Assembly (NCBI GenBank): GCA_003116975.1
Contig: BGKB01000136.1
Coordinates: forward strand, 62,001-126,000
From: Aurantiochytrium sp. KH105
Lineage: Eukaryota > Sar > Bigyra > Thraustochytrida > Thraustochytriidae
DNA length: 64,000 nt
Direction: 5' to 3'
A program made the position numbers and the translations under genes. The notes below the pieces were generated by a model that searched no databases, had not been told where the DNA came from, and saw only the letters and a list, made by a program, of their open reading frames with translations. Shown one piece after another: positions 30,775 to 63,733 of the stretch. Every line of letters starts with the position of its first letter. The stretch's first letter is position 1.

Positions 30775-30798
30775 TTACTGCATCGAGCCTTTGGTCTG
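30645..30798. repeat. Seven tandem 22-bp repeats crossing the stop codon of the kinesin gene
   Basis: Unit ACTGCAYCGAGCCTTTGGTC plus two bases starts at 30645, 30667, 30689, 30711, 30733, 30755 and 30777. The last unit encodes the kinesin C-terminus 'QTKGSMQ' and adjoins its TAA; the other six lie in the 3' flank. Confidence 0.95.
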
Positions 30799-35163: not shown

Positions 35164-35788
35164 CGCGCGCGAGCTTTCGCCCCGCCCTCCCTCCGCCCCC
35201 CAACCCCAATAAAGACCACGGACAAAGGGCACTCAGCGCTCTGGCTTCTGCTCGTCTCGTCGGACGTCGCTCTCGCACCGCTCCGCGGAGTGAAGCACGC
35301 CGTGCGTTGCCCGGAGCCGCGCACGCGAACGATTTGCTTGCCGCGCCTCGAGCCTTCGGGCGCCCGCCCAAGCAAAGGAAACCGGTGAAGACCGTCCAAG
35401 CAAGCCTCCAAGGTATCACGGTGAAAGAAACAGTGGCGAGCTAAAACGGTGTGTACCACAACGGCTAGCGAAAGAGTGCGCACGCGCGTGCTTCGCTCGC
35501 TGGGATCATCCGTGGCTCTGCTGCACCTTGGCAGCGGCTGACTGCTTGCGACAGTAGCAGCGCGAGGAGCAGGCTGGCGGTGTCGAGGGGAAGGCCACGT
35601 AGCAAGCAAGTGGGGTAAGTAAAGCTTTCGCCTGCCTATGGAGTAGAAAGGAGGAAAGAGACAAGGCGAGGGTGGGGGTGGGGCGAAAAGGACGAAAACG
35701 TGGGGAGAGCTGCCCGCCCTCGTCAAGCAAGTATTCATATATCGAAACGCTGGCCGTGGCCAGCCACGTTCGGCTCTTCTCCTTCGCC
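35164..35788. promoter_or_regulatory. Shared 5' region of the kinesin-3-like and coiled-coil/SPRY-like genes
   Basis: These 625 bp lie between divergent ATGs. The sequence is mixed, with no strong TATA box and a GGGTGGGGGTGGGG stretch at about 35668-35684. No gene supported. Confidence 0.5.
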
Positions 35789-37956: not shown

Positions 37957-38992
37957 CTCTGTTGGGGCTCTGCCGGTCGCGCTCGCAGTCGCCGTGCCGG
38001 CCGGTCTCTCGAGGCGACTCTCCGTCAGGCAGTCGGGGTCTGCGTCCATGCGGCGACGATCGGACTTGTGTCGCGTTAGCAGCAGCTGCAGATAGGACTT
38101 CTCTAGTTCCCACCCACAGTGGCGGCGAAGGCCTTTGGGGATGGGGCGCTCTGGCCGCGGCTTCGTCCGCGCACGAGACCTTTGTGGGAGGGAGCCAGGT
38201 ATCGCGGGGAAACGCGGTGGCGGGCAATGGGGTATCTTCGGTTTGTCCAGCGGAGGAAGAAGGCAAGAAGGGCTCGCTTTGTAGAAGTCGTCTGAGGAGA
38301 AAGATGGAGAGATCATGCACGTCAGGCAAGCTGGTTTTGGCACGTACGAGAAGAGATCTTTGAAATGCGCCTGTTGCGTTTGGTCTCCTTCCTTGTTTTG
38401 GTCTTGTAAAAATAAGAACGATGGTATACTTGCTACCTCTTGGTTTCTTTCTTTGAGATAACATCTTGGCGAGAAATCCAAAGAAATTTTCCAGGCTGAT
38501 CCTGCAATCGTAGTTGACAATATTCAACAACAGAATCGATTCAGCCACGCAGGAGAGAGAAGTAAAGAACTAGTAGTGGATCTTCTGCGCACGAACACCC
38601 TAATCTTCTGTCCTTTTTATCGGATTCGCAGCAAGAATAGAATTTGCGCAACGCTTTTTTTGCGCAACGCTTTTTCTTTCAACGGATCAATGCTTCGCAA
38701 CAAGGGTGATTCATCATCATCTCTCGGAGCAACTAACGCAAGGAAATCAATCGCTAGCCCGCCATTAATTGAAAGGCTCGTTTTTTGCAGCACTGAGAGT
38801 CCGACGCCCTTCGCTCTAGACCCGCCCACTTTCCGCCAAGAGAGGCAGGGAGGTTGGCAGGGAGGCTGGCAGGGCCTTTGTCGCGTTGCACGGGCATCTA
38901 CGCCTCGAAGGGACTGTGAGCTGGTGCGACGAACAATTCCGGGGCGAGCGAAAGGGAGGTGGGGTCAACGCAGAGCACAAACGAGCCCCCAG
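37957..38992. promoter_or_regulatory. Shared 5' region of the thioesterase and kinesin-9-like genes
   Basis: About 1 kb between divergent ATGs. Open frames continue from both genes into this region, but only with low-complexity products. A GCAGGGAGG-type tandem (GGCAGGGAGGTTGGCAGGGAGG) is at about 38845-38872, and an 18-bp direct repeat with TTTTTTGCGCAACGC at about 38646-38673. Confidence 0.5.
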
Positions 38993-41020
38993 ATGCGTGT
39001 CAGAACTTATGCTCGTGTCCGCGGCTCGACCGGAAGTGGCGAGCGCAGCGCAATCGATGTCGACGAAGAACTGAAAACCATCATTGTGTCAGACTCAAAC
39101 GTCGAGGAGAACACCGAGGACGACGGCGGCGGCGATGGTGAAGACTACGGGAGCAACAGCGGAGCGAGCGGTAGCGATGCATTTAGTCACCTTACGACAT
39201 CATCAAGGGCCGCAAGAAGATGGCGAGCGAGTCGTATTCCTTTTGATGGCGTGTTTGGCCCCAATGCAGACCAGGGATGCGTTTTCGATCAGGCCGTTCG
39301 CCCCTTGCTCGAAGGTGTTCTCTCGGGAGTGAACTGCACTCTTTTTGCTTACGGGCAAACAGGGTCAGGAAAGACGTACACGATTACGGGGCGTGAGACG
39401 TATGAGTCTCGCGGAGTGGTGCCACGAGCACTCTCGGTGCTGTTCGAGGACAAGAGACTCAAGCGCTGCTCCGTGTCGTTTATCGAGGTATACAACGAAG
39501 CAATCTACGATCTCTTGCACGAGCGAGCAAAGGTCACAATGCGTTTGCAGGCAGCGGCGCCCCGTCGACGCACACTCACCTCCGTCACGCTTCGGAACAT
39601 GGAAGTGAGGGAAGTCGCATGCGAAGAAGATGCTCTCGATGCATTCTTTGCAGGAAATATGGAGCGGAGCACGGGAAGTACCGCTTTGAACATGTCGAGC
39701 TCACGGTCGCATTGCGTCTTTTCCATGGAGGTTGAAACGGCAACACATGTGGGGCGTATCAACTTTGTGGACCTCGCAGGATCTGAGCGCACGCAAGACC
39801 AAACATCAAAGCACATCAACTTGTCCTTGCACTTTTTGGAACAGGTCGTCCTTGACTTGCAATCAAAAAAGAGTCACATTGGCTTTCGCAACTCGACTCT
39901 GACCGCACTCTTGCGTGACAGTTTGACAGGCAACTGCCAGACTGCCTTCCTGGTCACGCTTAATCCAGAGGTAAGCCACGTCACCGAAAGTTTGGCAACT
40001 TGTAAGTTTGCGCAGCGCTGCAGCTGCCTCACGACGCAAGTCACCTCGAATGAGACACTTTCCCAAAAGATTCAACGCTTGCAGGCCGAGAACGTCAGCT
40101 TGCGCGAGGATCTCGCGAGGGCACTGGGGGCGCTTCGCGAACATGATGAAATTGGCACAATGTTGCGTGACCTTCTCAGGCACATCGATGACAATGTAAA
40201 CACACTTGTTTCTTCAGAGGTCGGATTTCTTAATCGCGTTAGGGCCCAAGTTGACCTTGACGCGCAGGCGATTTTCATCACGGGCGAAAGGGGGCCTATC
40301 ATGACGATCGAGCGAGACACCATCGCATCATTTGCCAGAGCCAAAATAAGCGAGACGAAATCTGTGCTCGAGGTTTATGGGGCTCCAATACAAGGAGGCC
40401 AGCCGGGTCCGCCTATCTTCTTCCTGGAGTATGCTACGGACGGGACAACGGTGGAACAAGTTGCCTGGCTACAGGCGTTCGAGCATTGGCTTGGTCCCGA
40501 TGTTGAGGAGTCCCGCGCTGCTGCGGCGGAGATCGAAAAACGACTCATTGCCGCTCAATCAGCTGAAATCATGGTTCCGTCAAGAGCGCCACCGGCTATC
40601 GGCGCAACTTTTGTACAGGAGCCACAATGTTTGCCGGCAGAACCGCCGCTAACTCCGCAATCTGTGACGCCCCCACTCCCCGGGGAGGACAGTCTTGGCG
40701 CTGACCGAGTCCAAGGTCACAAGTATGATGGACCATCTGCTCGTAATGCAACTTCCTCCCCTAAGGGCGTCAGTTTTGAGAAGAAACGCGAGGATGGTGT
40801 GATTCAACTTCGGGCCAATGTTGAAAGCAGAGGTCGAAAAGCGGCTCGAACTCTCCGGGAAGAAGAACAAGAACGCAAACTTGACGAAGACCACGAAAAC
40901 GATGAAGACAGCGGTGGCGGCGTCTTTGACGCGGACTCTACTGGATCTCGCGCAAGGTCGTCAAGCCTTGTACGCCGCGCCGTCGCCATAGTCAAGCAAA
41001 AAATGCATCCACATCATTGA
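38993..41020 (+). CDS. KIF9: Kinesin-9-like (KIF9/KIF6) motor protein, probable flagellar (675 aa)
   Basis: Start at ATG 38993 ('MRVRTYARVRGS'), the usual kinesin N-terminal strand; the upstream open frame (GTG 38576, ATG 38690) is unrelated to kinesins. P-loop GQTGSGKT at residues 121-128, switch I 'SSSRSHCVFSMEV', switch II 'FVDLAGSER'. The segment 'NLSLHFLEQVVLDLQSKKSH', then 'IGFRNSTLTALLRDSLTGNC', is the kinesin-9 form (KIF9/KIF6 'INKSLSFLEQ...HIPFRQSKLT..LKDSLGGNC'). Residues between switch II and this segment are shorter than usual. An acidic, Gly/Ser-rich insertion occupies about residues 30-60. A short coiled coil ('KIQRLQAENVSLREDLARAL') and a charged tail follow the motor. Kinesin-9 proteins act at the central pair of motile flagella and in intraflagellar movement. 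The convergent neighbour is CFAP70-like (258 bp apart), which supports a flagellar role. Confidence 0.85.
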   Translation: MRVRTYARVRGSTGSGERSAIDVDEELKTIIVSDSNVEENTEDDGGGDGEDYGSNSGASGSDAFSHLTTSSRAARRWRASRIPFDGVFGPNADQGCVFDQAVRPLLEGVLSGVNCTLFAYGQTGSGKTYTITGRETYESRGVVPRALSVLFEDKRLKRCSVSFIEVYNEAIYDLLHERAKVTMRLQAAAPRRRTLTSVTLRNMEVREVACEEDALDAFFAGNMERSTGSTALNMSSSRSHCVFSMEVETATHVGRINFVDLAGSERTQDQTSKHINLSLHFLEQVVLDLQSKKSHIGFRNSTLTALLRDSLTGNCQTAFLVTLNPEVSHVTESLATCKFAQRCSCLTTQVTSNETLSQKIQRLQAENVSLREDLARALGALREHDEIGTMLRDLLRHIDDNVNTLVSSEVGFLNRVRAQVDLDAQAIFITGERGPIMTIERDTIASFARAKISETKSVLEVYGAPIQGGQPGPPIFFLEYATDGTTVEQVAWLQAFEHWLGPDVEESRAAAAEIEKRLIAAQSAEIMVPSRAPPAIGATFVQEPQCLPAEPPLTPQSVTPPLPGEDSLGADRVQGHKYDGPSARNATSSPKGVSFEKKREDGVIQLRANVESRGRKAARTLREEEQERKLDEDHENDEDSGGGVFDADSTGSRARSSSLVRRAVAIVKQKMHPHH

Positions 41021-41278: not shown

Positions 41279-44179
41279 TCACGCTCTTGCATGCGGGATC
41301 ACCGTATGCAATCGATCTGCGATCCTTGCATCAGAGTTCAACTGCTGCAGCAACTCCTCCTCGCAAAGTCCGCGACGCAGCGCAATGGTGATGGTATGTT
41401 GAATTTCACAGTCAACCGCCGCAGGACCCGCGCTCGTGTGTTTGGCCGCAAAGAATCCCCAGGTCTTTGGATTCCCAGGATCGGCAATGAGCGCCTTGCG
41501 AAGTGCCAAGTCGGCCTCGCGCATATCGCCAAGCTGCGTGCAAGCGCGGCCAAGCCCTTGCCACGCCCATCCAAGTGTTCCTAGCGCTGCAGGAGCGCGG
41601 ACTGCATTCCGATATACCACGCGCGCTTTCCGCCAATCTCCAATCGCAGACGTGAGGGTTCCAAGGCAGAACGAAATGTGGAGACGGAGACTCGAAAGCT
41701 CTGGAGCCCAACGCTTATCGATCGGCTTCAGGCCGCGCTCCTCTAGCTCGTTCAAAATTGACATGGCAGAGCTGTGGGCGCTTCGTGACTTCGTCGCCTC
41801 TTGGACCTTTGCGAGAGCCAAGCCGAGCAAGTGATGTGCTTTTGCGCGGACGATCTCGCTCACTTCTTGATCTCCTGCATCAATACGTCTGCATGCGCGC
41901 TGAAGAATTTCAGCCCCAATGAGTGCAGCTCCCGTCATCATTTTGTGCTTTGCGCGGACCATTTCGCTTCGCACGAGGAATTCGCCCTCAAAGGGTTTTT
42001 GGGCACGGAGATGCGCGCACATGAGGACCTTTTGCGTGGAAAGGGCCAAGTCGAGATCAGCGAGACTTTCTGCGAGTCTGAGATAGATTTCTGGGCTCGC
42101 ACTTTGTTCGGACTGCGCGGCTTGAGACGCCGTATCAGCTTGCGTTGCTTCGGGCAAAGGCGATGCGGGAAAGAAGAGTGCATCCTTGTCCCCGAGCTCA
42201 AAACGGAGGAAGGCAAGCAATAGAGGCGCGGAAAGAAGTCTGTACTTGGAACTCTTCTTCTCTTGCGCTTGGCACAGGAGCGACTCAACATCAAGCGGCT
42301 CCCCCGACTCTAGCTCCTGCGGCAGGCGAAGTAAGAGCTCAATCGCTTGACCAAGCTTACCTTGACGTGCCATGCAAAGAGCAAAGTCATAGTTGGCGCT
42401 CGCATCACGTTGTGTGGCAAGCTCGCACCACATCTCGCAGGCCCGCGCGAGCTGGCCCACAAGCTCTGCTTCTTGCGCTATACAACGAAGTCGTTCGGCC
42501 GACATCCTCTCTCCGTTTCCACTAGTTTGCAGCTGCGTGACAAGGTCCATCGTTTGGCGAAGTGTTTCCTCATCGGCACGGGTTCGAAGTCCTGCAGCTT
42601 CTTGTATGGAGCTGAGGAGACGCATGCGAAGAACGTCTGTTGCGTCTGCCTCTTTGCGGATAGTGCTCGTTGCGTTTGTCTTGCTCAAATTTTGCGGGTT
42701 TGCCAAGTAAAGGTTCACGCTTTTGACGGCCTCGCAAGCTCGAAGTGACACTCCGGAGCGAGCCACCCGATCCGAGGAGGCCGTTGGCGCAAGCGACGAA
42801 ATAGATACAACATCTCGGCACACCCCTGGTGCTCGGATCAAAGGTCTGGAGGTGCTGATGCGGACGAGTACCGCGCCATCATCGGTGCTAGTGGCAAGCG
42901 CGGGTACACCGGGCTCTAAGAGAGCCTGAAGGTTGACGACGAATGCTTCGGAGGTCTGTTGCTTGCTATCTTCGTCAGTATCAGCAGCTTCCGCAGCTGC
43001 AGCTGCATTATCGGGGGACTCCACCTTTGCAGTTACCGCGCAGGCCTTCCAGATGGCATCAAGTACCCCAAGTTGGGCGATTGTACCCAGTGTAATGAAA
43101 AGTCGCGGAGCTTGGATTGGCGTTTCTTCTGTTTGCGCAAGTTGCCATGAAAGACTTTCCTTGTCAAAAATGATCTGACGTGGGGAAAGAACAAATTTCC
43201 AAGGCTCTCTCCTGGTATCTACTTCAGTTGCTTCATCCGTCTCCTCAGACTCGCTCTGTGCCTTATTGTCCTCGTTGTCGTTGACTTCCGTTGGCGTCTC
43301 TTGCGCGGCTGGATCTGTAGTTTCCTCAGACGCGGACTCAGCCTCTGACTTGACGGCCTCGATCGCATCGTTCTCATCGTCTACTTTGTCCACGGACGCA
43401 TCAGCAAGACAAATTTCAATTACAACCTTGCGGCTCTCTTCGTTCGCGAGAGAAGCCAAGGCTTCGGCTTGTTCCTCTGTGAACTGTGGCTGACTGTTTC
43501 CTGGAGATGTACTTTGCCCATCATGCTCCTCGGGACTGCTTTCATCACGAATGCAATTCTCCTCACTTTGTTCCACATCTGGAGACTCTGACGGAGGGCA
43601 AACGTTGTCAATCCAGTCTTGGACAAATTGTTGAGGCATGCAAGCTAGTGTGCAATCTTCAAGAGTGAGAACACGACCGCATACTGCATAGTTGATGAAC
43701 TCAGCGTCGGGTACGATGCTCAATTGAGCGCAAATTCGAATTTCATCCGCAATGCAGAGCTCAATTGTACGATCGAGACGCCGACCTTGAAGCAGGTCAA
43801 GGATCGAAACTCGCGTTGTTGCAAGCGCTTCAGCCTCATCTTCCACTTTGCGCCCGGCGAAAGCCTCGATGCAAAGTCCTTCGATGTTCGCGAGCGCCGT
43901 TAAGGACTCTTCATCAATCTGTTGCAAACGAGCTACCTCCGAAAACCAGAACCGCTTGGAGGTAAACGCCTCATTTTCCGGAGTCCACGCGAATACATTT
44001 CGCCACGACCTTGAGACTCCGTTCCATGAAGCGAGCTTGCTCGCAAATTTGTCAGGAAACCTGCATCTGACAGCAAATTCAAGTTTCTCCTCGTGGTTGC
44101 GGTTCTCGTCTTCAACTTGGTGGTCTTGTTGTTGTGTTTTGGTTGCTGCAACAGCATCGAGACGCACCGTGAACGACAT
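41279..44179 (-). CDS. CFAP70: CFAP70-like TPR protein of the flagellar axoneme (966 aa)
   Basis: First ATG of the frame is 44179; the frame is open to GTG 44386. The N-terminal 200 residues ('MSFTVRLDAVAATKTQ', 'KLEFAVRCRFPDKFASK', 'KRFWFSEVARLQQIDEESLT') look like a C2-type beta domain. The middle is acidic and disordered (Glu/Asp/Thr-rich, about 210-330). From about residue 560 the sequence is helical TPR: 'RLRCIAQEAELVGQLARACE', 'YDFALCMARQGKLGQAIEL', 'GWAWQGLGRACTQLGDMREA' and 'DLALRKALIADPGNPKTWGF', then 'TITIALRRGLCEEELLQQL'. This order and the last motifs match CFAP70, a central-apparatus/outer-dynein-associated protein of motile cilia. The identification is by pattern only; a generic TPR scaffold is the alternative. 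Confidence 0.7.
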   Translation of the reverse strand: MSFTVRLDAVAATKTQQQDHQVEDENRNHEEKLEFAVRCRFPDKFASKLASWNGVSRSWRNVFAWTPENEAFTSKRFWFSEVARLQQIDEESLTALANIEGLCIEAFAGRKVEDEAEALATTRVSILDLLQGRRLDRTIELCIADEIRICAQLSIVPDAEFINYAVCGRVLTLEDCTLACMPQQFVQDWIDNVCPPSESPDVEQSEENCIRDESSPEEHDGQSTSPGNSQPQFTEEQAEALASLANEESRKVVIEICLADASVDKVDDENDAIEAVKSEAESASEETTDPAAQETPTEVNDNEDNKAQSESEETDEATEVDTRREPWKFVLSPRQIIFDKESLSWQLAQTEETPIQAPRLFITLGTIAQLGVLDAIWKACAVTAKVESPDNAAAAAEAADTDEDSKQQTSEAFVVNLQALLEPGVPALATSTDDGAVLVRISTSRPLIRAPGVCRDVVSISSLAPTASSDRVARSGVSLRACEAVKSVNLYLANPQNLSKTNATSTIRKEADATDVLRMRLLSSIQEAAGLRTRADEETLRQTMDLVTQLQTSGNGERMSAERLRCIAQEAELVGQLARACEMWCELATQRDASANYDFALCMARQGKLGQAIELLLRLPQELESGEPLDVESLLCQAQEKKSSKYRLLSAPLLLAFLRFELGDKDALFFPASPLPEATQADTASQAAQSEQSASPEIYLRLAESLADLDLALSTQKVLMCAHLRAQKPFEGEFLVRSEMVRAKHKMMTGAALIGAEILQRACRRIDAGDQEVSEIVRAKAHHLLGLALAKVQEATKSRSAHSSAMSILNELEERGLKPIDKRWAPELSSLRLHISFCLGTLTSAIGDWRKARVVYRNAVRAPAALGTLGWAWQGLGRACTQLGDMREADLALRKALIADPGNPKTWGFFAAKHTSAGPAAVDCEIQHTITIALRRGLCEEELLQQLNSDARIADRLHTVIPHARA

Positions 44180-44828
44180 GGCCACGTAAGTGCTGAGGTC
44201 GACGCGTGTGGTCGTCGTTTGGGTCTGGTCGTCGCTCTGGCCTGGTGCGCAGACAGGTCTGACAAATTCAGGCACCGACCCCGCTCGGCCGCACGAGTCT
44301 GCGTCAGTGCTGCTGCACTCGTCCTTACGCAGGTTTCTTTCCGGTGAGCTAAAAAGGAGCTGGCGAGCTTGGTGCTCTCGCAGCACGTGCCCTTAGTATT
44401 GAGGGTCAAAACACGCAGAGTGAGAGAGAGAGCCGTGTTGACCGACCAATAAGCATGGCAGTCTCTCTCTCTCTCTATCCCTCTCTCCCTGCCTTATTCT
44501 TCTCCCACTCCTTCTCCCTGTGTGCGCGGCGCAGCTTCAGACTCCGGCATCGTACGCGCTGCCAAAATGCAGTGCCGCGGTGCGGATTCTGACAACGGCT
44601 ATATTCCATCTATCCTGTATTATCCTCGATCTTACTCTCTTTGAAGGATATTATCCTCGGTAGTCGAGATCAGCGATTTATTATCCTAAAAGATGAAGGA
44701 AGGAGACGAAGGGCCCGGCACTCTCTCTCGAGCACTCTCGCGTGCAGAGCCACTACAACTCGGTCTCGGGGTTCGTGGCGCAGCTTGGAAGCGAGGCGAG
44801 GCGAGGCGAGCGCTGCGCTGCGCGCACG
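44180..44828. promoter_or_regulatory. Shared 5' region of CFAP70-like and nuclease-helicase genes
   Basis: Contains a (TC)n tract at about 44461-44490, four copies of TATCCT in the 120-220 bp before the nuclease-helicase ATG (44611, 44621, 44652, 44682), and a short (GAGGC)n run at about 44793-44812. No gene is supported. Confidence 0.5.
44611..44687 (+). promoter_or_regulatory. Four TATCCT motifs upstream of the nuclease-helicase gene
   Basis: TATCCT at 44611, 44621, 44652 and 44682; three are within the longer TATTATCCT. The last three are spaced 31 and 30 bp, about three helical turns. A binding-site role is inference. Confidence 0.35.
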
Positions 44829-47800
44829 ATGGGCGTGCCCGGTTTCACCTCGTACCTGGACAGAGAGTTGGCGGGTCGAAAGCCCGCTCTGCGAAAGCTG
44901 CCTCGGGATGGGCCATGTCTCGTGGATGGGAGTGGGCTGGCCTTCCACTTGCTCAAGATCCTTGGCAAGAACGCCCACCGCGAGCTTGCCGGCGCGTACG
45001 AACATCTCGAGTCCATCACGACTGTCTACATGCAGGCGCTGGCCCAAAGCACAGCAAGTACGTGGATTCTTGCCGATGGGAACAAGACGCATGCGAGCAA
45101 GGAGGCGGAGAAACGCAAGCGCAAGGCCGATCGCGACGACACCTTTCACGTTCTCTACCGCAACCTCGAGTTTGGTGAAGCGCCAGCGTCGCAAACCCAG
45201 CTACCAGTCCCTCCGCTTTGGCTGGATACCTTTTACACGTTCTTGACAGAGCTCTGTGGAGAGCGAGCCGACGCGTTGCCCGCAAACTATCCGCTGCATC
45301 TTTTGCGCGTCAAGGAGGAGGCAGACCAGGCTCTTTGCACAATGTGCAGGACATTTGTTCGAGCCGAGGCTGAGGCCTCGATGGCGAGCGGAACCAGAGC
45401 TGGACTCGGAGCCATCGATGAGGCCGAGCAGGATGGCGCCTTCGTCTTGGCGCAGGACTCGGATTTCTTTTTCGTGGCTGACATGCGCTATGTGCCGCTT
45501 GACTCCGTGGAGAATGGCCTTTGTCGAGTCTACACGCGAGCGTGGTTGGCTAATGCGCTTCGCGTGCAAGAGGATCTCATGACGGAACTTGCGTTGGCCA
45601 TCGGCAACGACTACTTCGAGGGCTGGAAGGTTCCGGACTTGCCCTCGCGTATTTCGGCGACCGATCGAGTCGCCGTGATCGTAAACCACTTCCGAAAGGG
45701 AAGACCTCAACTCAGTATCCCCGAAATGATTTCTGAGACAGCTGGTTCTGCTTTTTCACGCACATTTTACGAGAATTTGCAGGATCCTCATTTCCGCTTG
45801 TGCGATCTGCCAGTCCCGGCTCAGGAGAAACCACAATTTCGAAAGGCTTTAATGAATCCACGCGTTGATGTAAAGATGCATTGGGACGTGGAGCTTGCGA
45901 ATTCCGTAGGCTATACCAAGTCTCAGATTCGGGCCCAAATTGCTGCTATTCGCTACGTCTTCTCGCGCATTGGGTGCTACCAAGGTCGGTTGGCAAGAGA
46001 GCAAGGGGAAGACATTACTGATGCAAACAAATTTTCTATGGTGGCTCTTTCTAACGCGATCATGGGATTTGAAACCGTCACGAAAATGGGTCTTCTTGAT
46101 CCACGTGTGCCGATGGATGCGCCGTCTTGGACTCGGTTCTGCCTTATCTATGGGTATCAGATTCTTTTCCAATCCATGATGCGCGCGTGGATCCCTGTGC
46201 AACCATCTGCCGTGAGTGCGCAGCCCAATTTGAGTTTCCACGTATTCACCTGTTGTTCCCAAACCTTTCCACTTCTTTGCGAGTACGGGGCGGACTCTGA
46301 CGCGAAGGTGCGTCCCCTTATTCGCTCTCAACTGCCTGGTCCTCTTCAAGAACTCGGAAACGCGAAGACAGACGCTTCAAACTTGGGCCTTTCTATGGCC
46401 ACAATGCAATCGACCACAGGCGAATTCGAACATGGAAAGTCAAAGGACAACTTGAAGAGCAAGAAGAAGAACAAACCCAAGAGTAAAAACAAGAAGAAAA
46501 ACAAAGACAAGAACAAGAAGAAAAACAAAAACAAAAACAAGGACAAGGTCGAAAACGCGGTCGGCACGGAGGACATGACGAGAAATTTTTCAGGAGACGC
46601 GAACTCGAGCCCGCGCATGAACACACATCATCAGGACCAAAGCAATTATCTGAGCATTCAGAGAGACTTGCACGTTTCGGACTGGACAGCAACCGCCGAG
46701 TCACCTCTCTCTTCGAACGCAGAGGAGGAGGAGGAGGACGATATCGTGTCCGACTTTCGTCTTGCAGAGGACTTTGCGAAACTCGTACTTCCAAGCGCAG
46801 TCGCGCCACCTACGCCGATTCGCGACGACAGGTCAAGTTGTTCGGTCTCTAACATTGCGCAAAATTACAACACTCCACCAAAGACAAGCCGCGCTGCAAC
46901 ACCTTCTGGCCAGAGCATCCAATCCGCTCAATCCGCTACCCCTCACTCTAAATCCTCCTTTAGTGCCGGGAGTGCAAGGAAGCGTATGGCCAAAAAGAAG
47001 AGCAAAAGGCCAGCAGGAACGGCTCCCACACAGTCGCAGCGATCAAAGGAAGCTGCCGCCACGGTGAATCGCTCGCCGGGCTTGGCTGGTCCAGAGAAAC
47101 TTCCCATCGAAGCGCATCGGGAAGAAATCCTACATCGCGTCGCGCAGTCCCGCGTGACGATCATTCATGGAGAAACAGGGTCGGGGAAATCGAGCTGTCT
47201 GCCACGTTTTCTTTGGGAGGCCGATAAAAAGGGATTTCGTGCCATGATCTCGCAACCTCGCCGTATCGCGGCGCGGAGTCTGTCCCTTCGCGTGGCGTCT
47301 CAAATTCCAAACGGCGACAAGGTTGTCGGACTCCGTCTCGGAGGTGGAGTGCGCGAAGGAGGGCATCGAGCCCCCATCACATTTTGCACAACGGGCTATC
47401 TTGTGCGACTTTTGGCAGGCTCTCCATCCTATTTTGACAACCTCTCGCATTTAATTTTGGATGAAATCCATGAACGCAGTGCGGATCAGGATATCCTCGT
47501 GCTCTTGGCCAAAAGACTTCTCAAGACCAATCAGCACATCAAGCTGGTGCTCATGAGCGCAACCTTGCAAGCAAAGCTTTTTCAAGAGTACTTTTCATGC
47601 TCGCCTCCCGTTTTTGTCGGAGCGAAACGGTACCCTCTCACGGAACGATTCCTTGGTGACCCGCAATTTCAGCAAAAGGCTGGACCCGAATTGGAGGGTA
47701 GTGTTAAGACGCTCGTAAAGATGCAGAAAAAGTCGTTGCAAATGTACTCGGGTCCTCCAGAGACTCTCGAAGGCACTGAGCTGCGTCAATTCCTCGCCGA

Positions 47801-50800
47801 GCACCCGGAGGTATCCATCGAAGTCAAGCCAGACATGGTCAAGCAACAACTCAGTCTCGCTGTTCAGCTCGCGATTTCGGTTGGCAAAGAGGCTCGTTCG
47901 TCGATTTTGATCTTCGTCTCGGGCATGGCCGAGATCGTAGAAATCACGGCACAGTTCGAGGGCATCAACGAGCTCATATTGTACGACCAGAGTCTCATTA
48001 CTTCCACGTATGGCGGCATCCGGGAGTTCCGTGTTGTCGCCATTCACAGCACCATTCCATACGAAGAGCAGCTCGATGCATGGGAAGATGTGGGCACAGA
48101 CGTGCTCAAGGTGATTGTAGCCACAAACTCTGCGGAGTCGTCGATCACCCTGCCAGATGTCGACAACGTGATTTGTCTGGGCACTCGCCGACAGCTCGAG
48201 TACAACTCAAAGAAAGCAACGTCCTCTCTTAACACGCGGTGGGTATCAAAGGCGTCGGCAACGCAACGGGCAGGTCGCACAGCCCGCACGCGCCCGGGCA
48301 CAGTTTGGCACTTGTACACCCGGGATGTGTACGGCAAGATGTTGGACTTTGACTTGCCCGAGATCCACACTTGTCCCTTGGATAAGGTTCTGTTGGACCT
48401 GAAAACCCTGGTGGTGGGGCCGGTGATCCCTTTGCTTCTCAAGGTGATTGACCCTCCGTCATTGGAGAGGTCGCAAGATGCGATACGCCAGCTCTATCTG
48501 CAAGGATTCATCGACTCGGACGACGATGATCTCGCAATGCACACACCCCTGGGACGCTTTACATCTCAACTTGGTCTCGATCTTTCTTTGTCTGCTTTGA
48601 TTGCGCGTTCGATTCTTCTCGGCTGCGCGCCGGAAGGCATCGCCTTAGCTGCGGTGCTAAGTGCAGAAAAGAGTCCTTTTCGGGTGGCGACGCCTCTCAT
48701 CCACTCGGACCCGATCGAGTACCACGGCATCCTCCAGGGTGTCATCACGACCAAGATCGCATTGGACGGCGGCTTGTATTCGGAGACGCTAGCCTTGGTG
48801 CGCCTCATCTCCATCTGGACTCACGCCACCAATGATCGTTTCCGTCGCGAGTTTTGTCAGGCAGGCGGGCTCGCGTGGGCTCGCGTTGCGCGACTAGCAG
48901 TTCTGCACAAGCATCTCGCACATGCTGTGGCTCAAACGACTGGGCAAGATGCGTCCGAATACGCTCTGCCGCCTCCGCGGGAAATTTTTTGCGACGCATC
49001 CCGATTGAATCGTGTTCGGTTTGTGCTCTACTCTGCGCACCCGGGAAACCTGTTGCGCTACACGCCCAAAAAGGTGGACATGCTCGAAACGGGCTTGGCA
49101 GCGAATATCAAGGACCCAAAGGGACTCTATTCGAGAATGATGATCCCTGAATCGATCAAGACGAGTATGCTGGAGACTGCATTTCCTCGTGAAGTCGTTT
49201 GGTCGCTTTGCAAAAACACGCATCAGCAAGCAACAATTTCGTATGCGGCAGAGGACGCCCCGTCAGCGTTCAATACTCTGATACATTTGAGTGAATTTGC
49301 GCAGAATCTCATGTCGGCGCCCTCCTCACCGCCGCCACAGCAGCAGCAGAAGCAAAAGCAAAATGGGCAGTCGCCATCCGGCAAGACCATTGGTGATGAC
49401 GTTCAAATGGCATGGAGTGTCTTGATGTACGGCCGCGTCACAACGGCGGTAAAGGCACACGCCACGGGATACTTCCACGACGATGATTACCTGGACGACG
49501 ATGATTCATTTTACAGCGACGATGAGTACTTTACAGGGGACTCACTGAGGCAGTTCGGATACACATCTCGGAGAACGTACGATGAGGAGGAGGACGGTTT
49601 TTCGGAAGTCACTGTCGATGACCACAGTCTGTCGAAACCCCTCCTTTTTCTCATGAGGGATGCAGATTTGCTGGCATCTCTCGGTGCTGCCGTTGCGCTG
49701 GAAGACTTGAAGGTCTTTCATGGGTTCAACGAGCCCAAGCAACGCTCGGACGTAGTCGTCATGGAGGTCGCCTCTCCAGCCCTGGACAGCGTCATTACGT
49801 GGCAACAGAACACGAATCGACGCTATGCGACGCTCTTTTCAGAAATGAAAACCGGGTCCAACTTCAGTGACGGCTTCGATCGCCTGTTCGAAATCGACGT
49901 GAATTTGTACAATTTCCCTCTGTCCCGCAAAGTCAAGGGTGGTGGTGTCCTGGATGCCGCCGTCTTACGCGAGCAATTTGGTCGCGCAGGTCCTGTGCCA
50001 TCCGTTGTCGTGTACAAGGGCACAACGTCGAAATCATCACTTTATATGCGGGAAAGAGAACGCGATGTCTCCACCTCGGACGTTGAAGATGTTCCGCTTG
50101 GTGTTCGTCTTCTGATCTCCTATGCGTCCGGAAACCGTCCTCGCACTGTCGTCCGGCTGCCTTTACCTGACAGGGGAGGAGACACAAGTTCGCAAGCCAC
50201 GGCGTCGTCGAACAAGAGCAAAAAAGGAAAGAAACAAGAAAGACAAGAGCAGGATGGCGTCGCAATCTTGCCGCTATCCGATGCCCTCGCGCCCAAGTTT
50301 GAGCCGCTTCGATACTCTGTTCCCCGTAGACCAGATGCTGAAGGAGCCGATGAAGCCAACACCTTTGTGAAGAATCCACGCGTCTCCAGAATTTTTGCCC
50401 CACAACACTCGATCGCAAATTGCATGCTGCCGAAGAAGTCAATACCCGGCTTTGCAATAGGAGTTACTCTTCTTGGAAGTAATGGTGGTCGCATGGCCTC
50501 TACATCGCACCTGGAGCTTGTTCCGGAAGGCATCGATTGGCTGCACTACGCCATGGTGTGTTCTGGTTCGGAGCCTTCCGCTCTGGGCCGCATGAATGCC
50601 ATTTCTTCCATCGACGCTATCTTGTGCGGCCAAATTCATAGTATACTTTGGGCTTACTTTACGGAGATTGACAGCGTCATGCAGGAAGATATGGAGCTTA
50701 CTGCTCTCTTTGACCGAGTCTTTGCGAGATTTACGCAGACGATCCGCGAAATGCCGCCGGACTACTACCCAGATTTGATTGCGTCTCAGCAGCGCGAGGC

Positions 50801-51231
50801 CCAGATTGACAAGCAGCTAGCTGACATGACCAACGTGTCTGTGGAGCAAATTGCTTCCAAGGCGGTGAATCCGTACGCGACCCCGGCGAAAGCCAAGGTC
50901 GCCACGCCTGCAATGACTGCAACGACAAAAGATGCTCAAGACGCAACTGGTGCCTCAAACTTCAAGGGACCCAACACGCCGTCCATGCCTGTGCTGTCGG
51001 TTGTGTCAAGAACCCCTTCGTCAAGATCGACGCTTACAACGTCCGTAGTTTCAACCCATAAGACAGTGACGCCACGTGGGGAAAAGGTCGTAGTATCGAC
51101 GTCAGGCAATAAAGAAGGCGCAGCTTCGCAGGTGGACTCGAAAAAGGTGGTAGTTTCGACGCCCGCGCCAATGTCGGCCTCGCGACTTGCGTCACTAAAG
51201 CGCAGCAAGAAAAAGAAGAAGGGGCAGCAGA

Positions 51232-51254
<23 letters not shown>
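44829..51254 (+). CDS. Asteroid-type FEN/XPG nuclease fused to DEAH-box RNA helicase (2,141 aa)
   Basis: Start at ATG 44829 ('MGVPGFTSYL'), the typical beginning of XPG/Asteroid nucleases; the upstream extension starts only at GTG. The two-metal active-site acids of the FEN fold are all present: Asp33 ('LVDGSG'), Asp83 ('ILADGN'), Glu163/Glu164 and Asp166 ('VKEEADQALC'), Asp210 and Asp212 ('AQDSDFFF') and Asp261 ('GNDYFEG'). A Lys/Asn-rich linker lies at about 535-580. From about residue 755 comes a complete DEAH/RHA helicase: motif I GETGSGKS 781-788, motif II DEIH 878-881, motif III SAT 910-912, motif VI QRAGRTAR 1146-1153, then winged-helix/ratchet and C-terminal regions. The tail is basic and ends in poly-Gln. 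Expected activity is 3'-5' NTP-driven RNA (or RNA:DNA) unwinding coupled to structure-specific nuclease cleavage. The frame is continuous through the linker, with no stop or frame change between the halves. Confidence 0.92.
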
Positions 51255-52305: not shown

Positions 52306-54279
52306 ATGGTGTTGACGGGCGTGTACACGTGGTCGCAAACGGCGGAAAGTCTGACTGTAACGGTGCCGCTCAAAGGGGCGTCAGTGCGGTCCGTGGACGT
52401 CTATTCCAGCAGGTGCTATGTCAAGGTGAACTACCGGCCGTACCTGGTGAACCTTGACCTTTATGCAGACATCGACGACGCCTCAGAGGTTGTCACCGTC
52501 CGGGATGGGACGCTCGTGCTCAACTATCAAAAGGCCCACGCGGGAGAATGGCCTTCGCTCGTGTGTGAGGGACACAAAGACAAGGCGCTGATGCGTGAGC
52601 GCCGGTACAAGGCCATGGAGGAGAAGACGAGTCGAACGCAAGAAATGAGCAAGAAGCTGCGAGATCGCAGAATTGAAGATGCGAGGATGACGACACGAAT
52701 GCAAATGCGCGTTGACGAGGCAGAGCGTCAACGGCTTGACGACCTCAAGGCCGAGGAAAAGGAGGAGGCTGAACGCAAAGTGTACGAAACGTTGCGCAGC
52801 CTCGAGGCCAAACGTGGGAGTATCGAAGTGCCCGCGACTACGAAGGAAGCGCCCACGCCCCGCGTTGTTGTCAACAGCAGCAAGAGCCCGAATGAAGATG
52901 CAGAGGTGCCACCACCCATTTTGAAGGACGAAAATAGCTCTGAGAATGCGGGATCGGAGCAGACAAGACCACGGAAAGTGTCCTTTTGTGAAGACGGGCC
53001 TGTCCGGGTCGAACCGTCTGCAAGCGCAAGCACTGTAGCGTGCGAGGCTCCCGAAGACCATCAGGAGGAGGAAGACGTCACGCCAATGAAGCACGAAGAC
53101 ACGATCTTTCTAGATGCTGATACTGATGCTGACGTAGAGCTCGTGTCAGCAAAGGCCGAGCTAGCGAAGGGCGAGGTCGTTGTTGTCTCGAGTCAAGCTG
53201 AGCAAGCTGCAGCTGGCGATGACGAACTGGAGACGGTGGTGCCGCCACCGAGACAGGGTGTGCGCATGAAGATGGCCTTCACTGCGCGCGTATTTCCTAC
53301 TCCAATGCGCGAGTCCCGAAAGGAAGAGGAAGAGGACTGGCTTTTACGGAATCGACGACATATGAAGGGTAGGGCACGCGAGCGACTTGATGCTGTCGAT
53401 ATCAGTGAACGAGATCCTTTTTGGCTCAAGGGCAAGGGCGATGACTTTTTCCGTGCTGGAAACTATGAGGGTGCGCTAAATGCGTATGCGTGCGCCCTGG
53501 AGATCGACGAGACGATGACGGCATGTCTCTCTAACCGTGCTGCGTGTTTTTTGAAGCTGGGACACTTTGCACGCTGTATCGAGGACTGCAATCGGGCGCT
53601 GAAAGTTCTTCACGACGAGCGCGAAGAGGAGCTTGCCTTGGCGCAGCGTGAGGGTTTCACCGAGGAGCCCAAGGAATTTCGACGAACGAAAGAAATGCGA
53701 AAGAAGCTTCACGTGCGCAAAGGCACAGCTCTCCGATTTGACCAGCAATTCGCTGCAGCTCTGGCCGAATACCAGCTTGCGCAGGAGCTGTCGCCCATGG
53801 ACGAGGACCTTCGCGCTGACTGTGCTCGGCTCTTGTGCCTTGTGCAGTGCGCAGCACAGAAAGATCTTGGGGACACGGCCTTTCGGCGCAAAGGTTTCGA
53901 GGAAGCATTGGGCTGCTACAATAAGGCTCTCGAGTATGACCCAGAGTCGGCCTCTGTGCTTTCGAACCGGTCGGCGTGCTTCATGTGCCTCAAGCGTCTC
54001 GAAGAGGCTCGAGCTGACTGCAGCGCTGCGCTCGCGATTGTTGAGACTCGAATCGTCCCCGAAGCGGCGACTGGCGCGCCCCCTCGAAATACGAAACAGA
54101 TGGAGGAGGACAAGGCGCTGCAGCTCAAGTTGTCGAAGCGTCTCGGCATGCTTGCTCAATCAGCCGGTGATTGGACTGCGGCGGCTTCTGCTTTCCGCAA
54201 GGCTTTGGATTTGGACGAGACGAATCTCGAGCTTGCAAAGAAGATCAAGCTTGCGGAGGCCAAAATCAATCAAGAATAA
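52306..54279 (+). CDS. DNAAF4: Dynein axonemal assembly factor 4 (DYX1C1): CS domain plus TPRs (657 aa)
   Basis: Cytoplasmic co-chaperone that works with HSP90/HSP70 to pre-assemble axonemal dynein arms. ATG 52306 begins the p23/CS domain at once ('MVLTGVYTWSQTAESLTVTV', 'PLKGASVRSVDVYSSRCYVK'), as in animal DYX1C1. A charged coiled coil follows (about residues 95-165), then a disordered acidic stretch. The DYX1C1 signature 'FTARVFPTPMRESRKEEEED' precedes the TPRs and corresponds to 'FTPRVFPTALRES..AEEEE'. TPR units begin at 'FWLKGKGDDFFRAGNYEGAL' (about residue 369), with 'LSNRAACFLKLGHFARCIED', 'HVRKGTALRFDQQFAAALAE', and a second set 'DLGDTAFRRKGFEEALGCYN' to the end. Human DNAAF4 has 420 aa and one TPR set; the extra C-terminal TPR set here lengthens the protein. 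Confidence 0.93.
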   Translation: MVLTGVYTWSQTAESLTVTVPLKGASVRSVDVYSSRCYVKVNYRPYLVNLDLYADIDDASEVVTVRDGTLVLNYQKAHAGEWPSLVCEGHKDKALMRERRYKAMEEKTSRTQEMSKKLRDRRIEDARMTTRMQMRVDEAERQRLDDLKAEEKEEAERKVYETLRSLEAKRGSIEVPATTKEAPTPRVVVNSSKSPNEDAEVPPPILKDENSSENAGSEQTRPRKVSFCEDGPVRVEPSASASTVACEAPEDHQEEEDVTPMKHEDTIFLDADTDADVELVSAKAELAKGEVVVVSSQAEQAAAGDDELETVVPPPRQGVRMKMAFTARVFPTPMRESRKEEEEDWLLRNRRHMKGRARERLDAVDISERDPFWLKGKGDDFFRAGNYEGALNAYACALEIDETMTACLSNRAACFLKLGHFARCIEDCNRALKVLHDEREEELALAQREGFTEEPKEFRRTKEMRKKLHVRKGTALRFDQQFAAALAEYQLAQELSPMDEDLRADCARLLCLVQCAAQKDLGDTAFRRKGFEEALGCYNKALEYDPESASVLSNRSACFMCLKRLEEARADCSAALAIVETRIVPEAATGAPPRNTKQMEEDKALQLKLSKRLGMLAQSAGDWTAAASAFRKALDLDETNLELAKKIKLAEAKINQE

Positions 54280-56584: not shown

Positions 56585-58720
56585 TTACGATTGGTCGGAA
56601 CCATTGTTAAAGTTGCGCAAGGACTTGAGAAATTGTGTTGGAGAGAAGCGCCTCATCATGGACTTCCTGATGACGATGCGGCCGAATACTCGAGTCCACT
56701 CGGCATCAAAAGACTCGTGATCTTGGCGGCAGTGACGCAAATCAAGACTCGCCATTCCAAGATCAACAAGTCTGACCGTTCCGTTTCCTTGGATAGTGAC
56801 ATTGCGCAGTCCCATGTCGCCATGAGTGATACCAGCTCCATGCAGCTTCTCCAGAAGTGCATGGACTCGCGAGTGCACGGTGTTGAGCCCGACTGACCTC
56901 GCCGTTTGCTGCCCGACTTTCGATCCGAGAGAGTGCCCAGTATTGGACATCACAATCATGAAGTAAAAGCCCCCGTCAATGGGAAACTCTCCACTGTAAT
57001 GGACTACAGGGAGCACGCTGCCTTGCAGTGCGCGAGCTGCACCATCGTAGAGACGGGCTTCCTCCACTAACATGCCCATAAACTCGGTGGCCTGTTCATT
57101 GTTGAGATTGTAGCCGGTGTCGTACGAAGTCTCGTCGTCTAGATAGAGTGACGCCTTGGCGAAGCAGTCGTGGAAAGTTATACCTGCGATTTCGAGGGTG
57201 CTGTCCGAAAAGCCAACGCCGTATGCACCATGAAGTGGGACTACACTTCCTATGGATGTACAGACGGTCAACACAGCCAGCAAATCGTCCCTTTCGGAAT
57301 TGTCACCGCCGCTGCCTGCCTGTCGGAATGTCGTTTGCGCCTGACTAGAGGATGCGATGCTGGATTCAAACCTGCTCGTGTCGGGTCTTATGTCCGGTAA
57401 TTGATCGGTGTTTTTATCGATCCTGTTTTGAATCGCCTTGTTGTAGGAATCCGAGTCAAGTCCGGACGGAATCAAGGTCTCGTCCTTCATCACAAGATGA
57501 ACGAATACGGTCATCGCCTGCAGGAGCGAAACCGGCTGTTCTGCAAAGATATTGCCCATGGTAATATTGCCAGGTCCCGCGTCCGATGCGTTCGCGTCTT
57601 GCGCCATGGTAGATGTCCATGGCTCAAATCTCTCGGAATGGTGCAGCGTCGTCTGGCCGTTTTCGTCGATATCGAGCTTCAAAAAGTAGGTGGACTCCCA
57701 ATTCGATAAGATGCCATAGCGACATCCAGTCAGCATCATGTAGCTACACACTTGGGTCACTGGATTTCTCACGGATGCATACGTTTTTCTTCGAGAGCTA
57801 CCGCTTCCCTCGTAAAATGGTTCCAGCTCACTCCTTTTGTATTCTTCGAACGTGGTTTTGCTTAAGGTCTTGTCCGTTTTGTATTCGATCATGCAAACCG
57901 GGAACGACTCCAAGTAAATTATGCCGTCCGGTTGGCGTGGTGTTTTTGAGACGAAGTCGAAGACCTTATAGTTACCACCGCTCTGATAACTGAGTTGGAC
58001 GCTGTTCGGTTCGTTGGTTGTCCTCAAGATATGCTCCGCAGCTTCGTACAGTTTCTTCATGATGTCCACGACGCACTGCTCGGAAGTACCTGGCTTGTAA
58101 TCGCGGAGGTACACAATTGACTCGGGGAAAGAACTACGTTTTTCTTGAAAGGCGACAAGCCTGCCGACAAATTCTTGCAGATCGCTGTGAGAATATGCAC
58201 ATTCATCGAAACTGGCAAACCCCCATGGAACAGCGATGTCGGGGCTGTAGAAATGTGGAATGCTCGTAGTACCCGTACTGCTCGCATTTATAAAAAACGG
58301 AGGGTCGTGTGCCATAAGGTTGCTCCATACAGATACCACCGCCTCCTGTCTCGCTCGAAGTTCCGCGATTTCTTGAGCAAGCGCCTGTCTTCCAGCAAGG
58401 GCATCATCCAATTCCCTCTTGAAGTCCATCTCGCGCGTCTCGGATTTGCGCTTCAAGCCGCGCACTTCTTCGCGGAGTCTAGCTTCAGAAGCTTCCCGTT
58501 CTTCGCGCTCCTTTATTTTTTCCGCCGCAGTTTCCAACATATCGGCTAAATTATCTGGGATCCATGATGCGTCCCCATCACTCCTCCTAACAAGCGACTC
58601 CAGTTCCTCGTACGCTTCTGTGATGAGATGATGTTCCGAGGGATTCTTTCTCCATTTCTTGATTTGTGCAAAAGTGACATTTTGCACGAAGGCATCTTGC
58701 TCATCCTCCAAATCGAGCAT
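56585..58720 (-). CDS. Coiled coil + PD-(D/E)xK nuclease + protein-kinase-like protein (Crinkler-type architecture, 711 aa)
   Basis: Start at ATG 58720; upstream codons are open only from TTG. Residues 1-130 are helical/coiled coil ('AAEKIKEREEREASEARLRE'). Residues about 210-350 form a restriction-endonuclease-like domain: Pro264-Asp265-Gly266, Glu279-x-Lys281 in 'VCMIEYKTDK', and Gln323-x3-Tyr327 ('QVCSYMM') as in RecB-type nucleases, then 'YGILSNWESTYFLKLD'. Residues about 505-670 are kinase-like: a Glu-bearing helix 'EEARLYDGAARALQGSVLPV', catalytic loop 'HGDMGLRN' (His633, Asp635, Asn640) and 'VDLG' (Asp653) for DFG; a glycine loop and VAIK lysine are not obvious. REase-kinase combinations are known among Crinkler/CRN effectors and transposon-linked fungal proteins. 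The usual N-terminal LFLAK-type signal is not visible. Codon and base use are less GC-rich than in neighbours. Function could be an effector, a self/non-self conflict protein or a mobile-element relic; all catalytic residues of the nuclease seem intact. Confidence 0.85.
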   Translation of the reverse strand: MLDLEDEQDAFVQNVTFAQIKKWRKNPSEHHLITEAYEELESLVRRSDGDASWIPDNLADMLETAAEKIKEREEREASEARLREEVRGLKRKSETREMDFKRELDDALAGRQALAQEIAELRARQEAVVSVWSNLMAHDPPFFINASSTGTTSIPHFYSPDIAVPWGFASFDECAYSHSDLQEFVGRLVAFQEKRSSFPESIVYLRDYKPGTSEQCVVDIMKKLYEAAEHILRTTNEPNSVQLSYQSGGNYKVFDFVSKTPRQPDGIIYLESFPVCMIEYKTDKTLSKTTFEEYKRSELEPFYEGSGSSRRKTYASVRNPVTQVCSYMMLTGCRYGILSNWESTYFLKLDIDENGQTTLHHSERFEPWTSTMAQDANASDAGPGNITMGNIFAEQPVSLLQAMTVFVHLVMKDETLIPSGLDSDSYNKAIQNRIDKNTDQLPDIRPDTSRFESSIASSSQAQTTFRQAGSGGDNSERDDLLAVLTVCTSIGSVVPLHGAYGVGFSDSTLEIAGITFHDCFAKASLYLDDETSYDTGYNLNNEQATEFMGMLVEEARLYDGAARALQGSVLPVVHYSGEFPIDGGFYFMIVMSNTGHSLGSKVGQQTARSVGLNTVHSRVHALLEKLHGAGITHGDMGLRNVTIQGNGTVRLVDLGMASLDLRHCRQDHESFDAEWTRVFGRIVIRKSMMRRFSPTQFLKSLRNFNNGSDQS

Positions 58721-59066
58721 GGTTTCACGTCGTGGTAGTGCGGCTGCAGCCGCGCGCCCGTCCCCGCACAACGCTTGGTTCGCTGTAGCACCACTCCTCC
58801 CGCCCGGTGCGTTGTCACTTGCGCACCAACACGCTTTCCCTCGCTCGATCGGGTTCTGCTGACCTGCCCTGTTTTACTCGATGCTGGGCTTGAAAGCAGC
58901 CTCTACGGGGTTAGGTTTGGTTCTTCCCACAAGGTTAGGTTTAGGACACACCGTGTGCGCGCTACTCATTCCGGCCGGCATCACGGTGACACGATTTTTT
59001 CTGCGGCTTCACGAGATCATAGTCCGCAGTCTAATGTGTTTGTAATAACGGACTTTGGCATTCGCT

Positions 59067-62981: not shown

Positions 62982-63733
62982 CTTCTGGGTCGCCTTGCGC
63001 TTCTGTCGAATCAACTTGACTTGTCACCATCTGCCACTAAAAATTAAGCTTGACTGTGTAGATGTTGCCCCCCCTTCCCCCTACCTCGTTTCTCTATGAA
63101 GAACGTGTTTGCACATTGCAAGGCTAGGCAAGGCTAGGCCGAAAACTTATTGTTTACTTGGTGGGCTTGAGACCTTTTATGGTCTTTTCTCGCGACCTGG
63201 AGAAAATCACTTTTCGTTCAGTCGTCGACGAGAGAAAAATATGGCGAAAGCCTCGAACGAAGGCAAGGGATTTTCGGTCACATGGTCCGCAAACTCAATG
63301 CTCTGACATGCGAGATAGGCCTATGTGCTCGTTCAATCATTCGTTCATTCAATCCATCGCGAACAAACATTTTCTTATAGGCCTACTCCTCTGAATAAAA
63401 GGCCAATCTATGAAAAGGCGCAGAAGGTTGCCTTTTGTCCCAGCATTTTCACGACAAAGACAAAACAACCAACCAAGCAATCGGTTCTGATTGCCCCAAT
63501 CACCTGACTTTTGAGAGCTCATCATAATATCAGGACACGAATGAACAGCTGCGTCCAAAGAGAGAGAAAAAAATGAATATTTGGGGGGAAAAGGAATGAG
63601 GAATAGCGATGAAGGGTTGAGGGTTATCAGACGCTCCGAATCACGGTACGAATCGACCCAGAATGTCACTAGCAGCCTTGCGCGATAGACCCACGGTAGC
63701 TCGCACAAAGCCCGAGTGACTCAGGGGCGAGAC
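62982..63733. other. Intergenic between CWF19L1 and the Gln-rich gene
   Basis: 752 bp with a C-run (CCCCCCCTTCCCCC) at about 63067-63081 and two AGGCTAGGC copies at about 63120-63138. No gene is supported; open frames are short and unstructured. Confidence 0.6.

Follow-up and report, generated by a model that had tools for sequence, protein, structure and literature searches.

FEN1, EXO1, GEN1, and XPG are marked by a GCD signature together with a GxG of the helix-two-turns-helix (H2TH) type, and it is by the H2TH signature that FEN1 and EXO1 grip duplex DNA. FEN-type enzymes thread and cut 5′ single-stranded ends and 5′ flaps, while DEAH/RHA helicases travel 3′ to 5′ on single strands; FEN-type nucleases and helicases are usually studied as separate partners. 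Motor and nuclease share one chain in Cas3, RecB, Dna2, WRN, and Hef, with other nuclease folds or helicase families, and we know of no member of the Asteroid (ASTE1)/FAM120/Mkt1 group that carries a helicase. The gene considered here lies in a stretch of 64,000 nucleotides from Aurantiochytrium sp. KH105 (contig BGKB01000136.1, positions 62,001 to 126,000; hereafter the window), the host assembly comprising 76 Mb in 367 contigs. In one frame it encodes a DEAH/RHA helicase preceded by a FEN-like nuclease whose active site is intact; of this architecture and its conservation we are nearly certain. Helicase-nuclease fusions are already known, but the combination of these two families is apparently new, and with both active sites maintained across wide divergence it provides a ready test of motor-nuclease coupling.

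The protein resembles FEN1, EXO1, Rad2 (XPG), and GEN1 in its fold, N-terminal Met-Gly, seven metal-binding acids, and spacing of the gateway Lys and Arg; in contrast to them, it has GND instead of GCD, lacks an H2TH-like GxG in 62 of 65 aligned family rows, and carries a helicase. With Asteroid, FAM120, and Mkt1, grouped as in PMC12345631, it shares a FEN-like core followed by a long C-terminal half. As for DHX29, Spindle-E/TDRD9, DHX36, and DHX9, they have the same RecA1/2 motifs and winged-helix, HA2, and oligonucleotide/oligosaccharide-binding (OB) regions and give the best profile scores, but none of the N-terminal nuclease. The pairing of YTHDC2 with XRN1 likewise joins a DEAH/RHA helicase to a FEN-fold 5′ nuclease (PMC6356822), there, however, as two proteins rather than one polypeptide. 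The sequence-only reading of this DNA knew of no described family combining both enzymes; no account of the fusion was found in one open-access library either, although an earlier mention elsewhere is possible, e.g., in a survey of the PIN-like superfamily.

The two halves of the protein

The frame at 44829-51254 (+) is open over 2,141 codons with no internal stop, as originally described. An in-frame stop lies 5′ of the gene at 44694, and the ATG at 44829 fits the family, since Gly2 is kept in all 55 family rows that have this column. The nearest database entry, from the thraustochytrid Hondaea fermentalgiana, has the same fusion, with 96% identity over residues 1-560, and all insertions and deletions between the two linkers keep the frame.

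The FEN-fold metal-binding acids named in the sequence-only reading are all found in the window protein (D33, D83, E163, E164, D166, D210, D212, and D261), along with basic residues K91 and R98 and a GND signature at 259-261. In 34 aligned fusions chosen from 70, D33, D83, E164, D166, and D261 are invariant, E164 being the invariant member of the E163/E164 pair, and D210 and D212 are kept in at least 90%. According to the 70-row alignment, 57 of the 58 rows that fully cover the seven positions are acidic at all of them. K91 is kept in 59 and R98 in 60 of 61 rows, with a spacing like that of the FEN1 gateway pair. Seven conserved acids on a FEN fold mark the domain as a member of the FEN/XPG (Rad2) superfamily, and the nuclease is very probably active. 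Where FEN1-type enzymes have GCD, 60 of 65 rows have GND, and 3 of 65 have an H2TH-type GxG within 45 residues; this places the domain outside the FEN1, EXO1, GEN1, and XPG subfamilies.

The name "Asteroid-type", under which the nuclease was first described, is plausible but weakly backed. In a structure search of a viral library, whose matches comprise FEN-, asteroid-, XPG-, XRN-, and host-shutoff-named nucleases, asteroid-named giant-virus proteins rank second and fifth; FEN-, XPG-, and XRN-named proteins, however, reach similar scores, in some cases with longer alignments. The Asteroid Pfam model PF12813 has no match in the window, matches 2 of 12 family members at E-values up to 10 (best 1.6e-5), and is found in the precomputed domains of 3 of 120 listed homologues.

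In the helicase half, motifs I (GETGSGKS, 781-788), II (DEIH, 878-881), III (SAT, 910-912), and VI (QRAGR, from 1146) are present as claimed, motif V (NSAESS, 1100-1105) was found too, and the motif residues are also conserved among the 34 fusions. These motifs, with II of the DEAH type, and the winged helix, HA2, and OB fold seen in the predicted model and fold search are those of DEAH/RHA helicases. A Pfam search of the predicted protein recovers DEAD and Helicase_C, but no XPG or Asteroid model matches the window protein; residues 1325-2141 have no Pfam match, and residues 1325-2011 alone gave nothing credible against PDB (best E-value 0.004, a designed repeat protein). According to the PDB profile search, DHX29 and Spindle-E score best with this half, DHX29 being the top solved helicase (477 bits). 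In the fold search Spindle-E aligns over 412 residues vs 259-351 in the other 49 rows; Spindle-E and TDRD9 have a Tudor domain C-terminal to the helicase. The name DHX29, borne by the Hondaea entry, is not established for the fusion protein: ucp12-type rows form a separate clade (support 97, in a tree without an animal DHX29 row), and 4 of 6 of them carry PF05773, a domain for which Pfam gives no match in the window.

Outside the motifs, family-conserved residues include W434, Q444, and F480 in the helical extension after the nuclease core and P-x-G-x-x-W-x-x-x-A-x-x-C-x-G in the OB-fold-type region. The Hondaea entry skips a stretch equal to window positions 49989-50246 (86 codons, flanked by GT/AG in the window). 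This intron call looks wrong, because in the window the stretch reads through without a stop and codes for the family-conserved motif D-x-P-x-G-x-R-L. The entry also merges the fusion gene with the downstream CS/TPR gene, and both deviations look like annotation errors.

Distribution and descent of the fusion

Of 7,986 candidates scored in a homologue search with residues 745-1620, 271 reached an E-value of 1e-10 or lower; 120 of the 271 are listed. With the window added, 89 could be tested for the nuclease, having an N-terminal part of over 150 residues ahead of the helicase, and 32 could not. An iterated nuclease profile recovers the domain from 70 of these 89 (the window and Hondaea are among them), which makes carriers of 69 among the 120 listed clusters. 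Of the decoys, reversed or off-domain, the reversed Hondaea and window rows reached E-values of 0.016-0.32 during the first two rounds, too weak for the inclusion threshold of 1e-3; in every later round all decoys stayed at 1 or above. In a single-sequence search with the nuclease half Hondaea is the sole match (1 of 7,992 candidates). The full-length alignment as query brings up no further fusion: its 6 matches are P0001 and P0002, already known as fusions, and four HrpA/HrpB-type helicases.

The named carriers are Hondaea, Cyclotella, Thalassiosira, Nitzschia, and Epithemia (the last four diatoms), Aureoumbra and Aureococcus (pelagophytes), Chrysophyte H1, Spizellomyces (a chytrid), Effrenium (a dinoflagellate), and one with the partial name "Paraphys". 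The search for the same architecture in other labyrinthulomycetes and stramenopiles thus succeeded and reached a dinoflagellate and a chytrid as well; judging by these matches, the fusion is a broad eukaryotic family extending beyond labyrinthulomycetes. It looks like an old eukaryotic enzyme that was overlooked rather than a local oddity. Indeed, it is easily overlooked, since carriers are listed as "hypothetical protein", "RNA helicase", "HrpA", or "DHX29", while the precomputed annotation gives XPG-type domains in 7 of the 69 listed carriers (P0017, P0045, P0049, P0054, P0055, P0064, and P0065). Carriers P0003 and P0028 have CAMPEP/MMETSP names, those of a transcriptome collection, and this speaks for both halves being on one mRNA in relatives. 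Fusions P0042, P0053, P0054, and P0059 have extra C2H2-type zinc fingers, located in the C-terminal region in the chytrid P0059.

The 19 negatives include ordinary DEAH helicases and also members of the wider family. The hemichordate Glandiceps (P0088, one predicted isoform) has the helicase and no nuclease match; its N-terminus is shorter than 150 residues and by eye contains no nuclease. A viral origin is rejected: of 25 pattern matches to the nuclease alignment on viral contigs none was confirmed, and the full alignment gave one locus, L009, with a helicase match only (residues 758-1191, 29% identity).

According to the helicase tree (71 rows; Shimodaira-Hasegawa-like approximate likelihood ratio test), the window belongs to a clade of 42 rows with support 100 and a long stem, apart from the ucp12-type rows in this tree without animal DHX29, Spindle-E, and DHX36. 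Nuclease is carried by 39 of the 42, the others being P0051 and P0061, with an N-terminus too short to test, and the negative P0009. P0009 groups with pelagophyte rows. The next clade (13 rows, support 91) includes Durusdinium, Effrenium, and Glandiceps and has the nuclease in 3 rows. Rows with incomplete coverage were excluded, as was a list of 35 ids consisting largely of near relatives of the rows retained, among them P0006-P0008 and P0085 (without nuclease) and P0079, P0080, P0083, and P0084 (too short to test). The nuclease tree (36 rows) has 16 of 33 splits in common with the helicase tree, vs a mean of 0.22 and a maximum of 3 in 2,000 trials with shuffled labels; 3 of the 16 have support below 50 in at least one tree, and both trees are quick ones with a single support measure, the outgroup of the helicase tree not falling on one side of a branch. 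Groups recovered in both are the window with P0002-P0004, the diatoms, the pelagophytes, and the group around Chrysophyte H1. The two halves are shown to have been inherited together. The chytrid sits among stramenopile-like rows in these trees, and the fusion could have been transferred between lineages.

Mechanism, substrate, and competing explanations

The "unwind-and-cut machine" proposed in the sequence-only reading is a reasonable interpretation of the architecture. The helicase would load on a single-stranded 3′ tail and travel 3′ to 5′, like its family, and its movement would peel the complementary strand off from its 5′ end; the nuclease would then trim the 5′ end so exposed. This opposite-strand model is preferred because on one strand helicase and nuclease would run towards each other. 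The helicase may also provide the duplex grip that the nuclease lacks, a role attributed to it because the canonical H2TH signature is missing. Unwinding and cutting are probably coupled. RNA or a hybrid is slightly favored over plain DNA as the substrate, and we infer structured RNA or RNA:DNA hybrids to be the likeliest targets. Taken as a whole, mechanism included, we regard this reading as evenly balanced.

Several observations weigh against it. P0073, the one exception among the 58 covered rows, has Ser at D261, and P0005, which is partial, covers three of the positions and shows Pro, Glu, and Ser there. The nuclease model has a mean predicted local distance difference test score (pLDDT) of 64.8 and is unreliable beyond about residue 320. 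The linker between the halves is about 210 residues long, and spatial coupling across it is a proposal. By score, P0006-P0009, P0075, P0081, and P0085 are members of the wider family, and they have no nuclease, from which it follows that the helicase can exist alone; in P0006-P0009 a low-complexity-looking N-terminus takes the place of the nuclease, an apparent loss. Finally, the FEN-fold relative Mkt1 keeps 2 of 6 active-site residues and still functions (PMC7026591), so that a FEN fold alone is no proof of cutting.

The best-surviving alternative, which we consider unlikely but to be taken seriously, is a DNA-repair enzyme acting on R-loops, G-quadruplexes, or broken DNA ends, as is reported for ASTE1 and DHX9/DHX36 in animals. 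The closest solved nucleases, both for the family profile against PDB and in the fold search, are the DNA enzymes FEN1, EXO1, and Rad2, and the Lys-rich linker could hold a nuclear signal. ASTE1 is reported to have nuclease activity and a role in DNA repair (PMC12345631); G-quadruplexes, whether of DNA or of RNA, are acted on by DHX36, and DHX9 has a part in genome stability (PMC5832417). The duplex-gripping H2TH signature of FEN1 and EXO1 is, however, missing, and the helicase half scores best with RNA helicases. The nuclease relatives fall on either side, with ASTE1 and FAM120B reported in DNA repair and Mkt1 and FAM120A in RNA control (PMC12345631, PMC7026591).

An XRN-type 5′-to-3′ RNA decay enzyme, in effect a fused YTHDC2-XRN1 partnership with the helicase removing structure or proteins, is improbable. 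The fold matches of the predicted nuclease include XRN1 and XRN2, and XRN shares the GND signature. YTHDC2 binds XRN1 (PMC6356822). In contrast, the family-profile search of PDB sequences gave no XRN at E-values up to 1, and the opposed directions of helicase and exonuclease on one strand count here as well. Still less probable is a nuclease domain serving as a non-catalytic binding module in what is in effect a helicase: Mkt1 with its reduced active site is needed for RNA interference-mediated silencing (PMC7026591), but the seven acids are kept across very diverged proteins. There is next to no chance that two adjacent genes were fused by an assembly error or a lost stop codon: the linker is low-complexity and the Hondaea model itself faulty at its 3′ end, but the identical join in Hondaea and so many other clusters, some with transcriptome-type names, and the congruent trees speak for a genuine fusion, unless all records share one error.

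A bolder version of the unwinding-and-cutting reading is rather doubtful: an ancient one-protein enzyme whose 3′-to-5′ motor feeds 5′ ends to the H2TH-less FEN-like nuclease, targeting RNA that is structured, double-stranded, or in a hybrid (transcripts from transposons or viruses, or aberrant ones), an enzyme that predates the split of stramenopiles, dinoflagellates, and fungi or spread among them and is missing from the usual model organisms.

If RNA is cut, ecologically important algae would have an added nucleic-acid surveillance enzyme; if hybrids or DNA are, this would be a new repair enzyme.

Coordinates and neighborhood

Table 1. Parts of the fusion gene and neighboring genes (window positions)
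Feature	Position	Strand	Basis or remark
Whole gene, FEN-like nuclease + DEAH/RHA helicase	44829..51254	+	2,141 aa, single frame in genomic DNA
FEN/XPG-type nuclease core, residues 1-320	44829..45788	+	family profile vs PDB sequences; predicted fold with FEN1 match; conservation
Mostly helical extension, residues ~321-533	45789..46427	+	alignments; low-confidence model
Low-complexity linker, residues ~534-744, Lys/Asn-rich at start	46428..47060	+	sequence and Hondaea comparison
Helicase RecA1 + RecA2, residues 745-1160	47061..48308	+	Pfam DEAD, Helicase_C; PDB matches
Winged-helix + HA2-type region, residues ~1161-1410	48309..49058	+	model, fold search; weak Pfam HA2_C below cut-off
Mixed-confidence region, residues ~1411-1796, long stretch with pLDDT <50	49059..50216	+	model; family motif D-x-P-x-G-x-R-L at ~1753
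OB-fold-type region + C-terminal helices, residues ~1797-2001	50217..50831	+	assignment inferred from DHX9/DHX36 fold match
Low-complexity tail with poly-Gln end	50832..51251	+	48% identity to Hondaea entry, whose gene model differs here
Kinesin motor protein	30775..35232	-	
Kinesin motor protein	38576..41020	+	
Divergent neighbor, 1,035-codon frame	41279..44386	-	TPR matches below curated cut-offs
Downstream gene with CS and TPR domains	52306..54279		
Weak match to type I restriction model HSDR_N_2	56585..58771	-	5.7e-5, 23.6 bits, cut-off 25
CwfJ-type protein	60963..63014	-	

The two kinesin genes lie close by on opposite strands. CwfJ-type proteins are related to lariat-debranching cofactors, and a restriction-type match such as HSDR_N_2 is unexpected in a eukaryote. 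An Rfam scan of the window at gathering scores gave no matches. Elsewhere in the host genome, XPG_I matches are paired at equal score on contigs C16/C41, C19/C185, and C134/C128, as if both haplotypes had been assembled.
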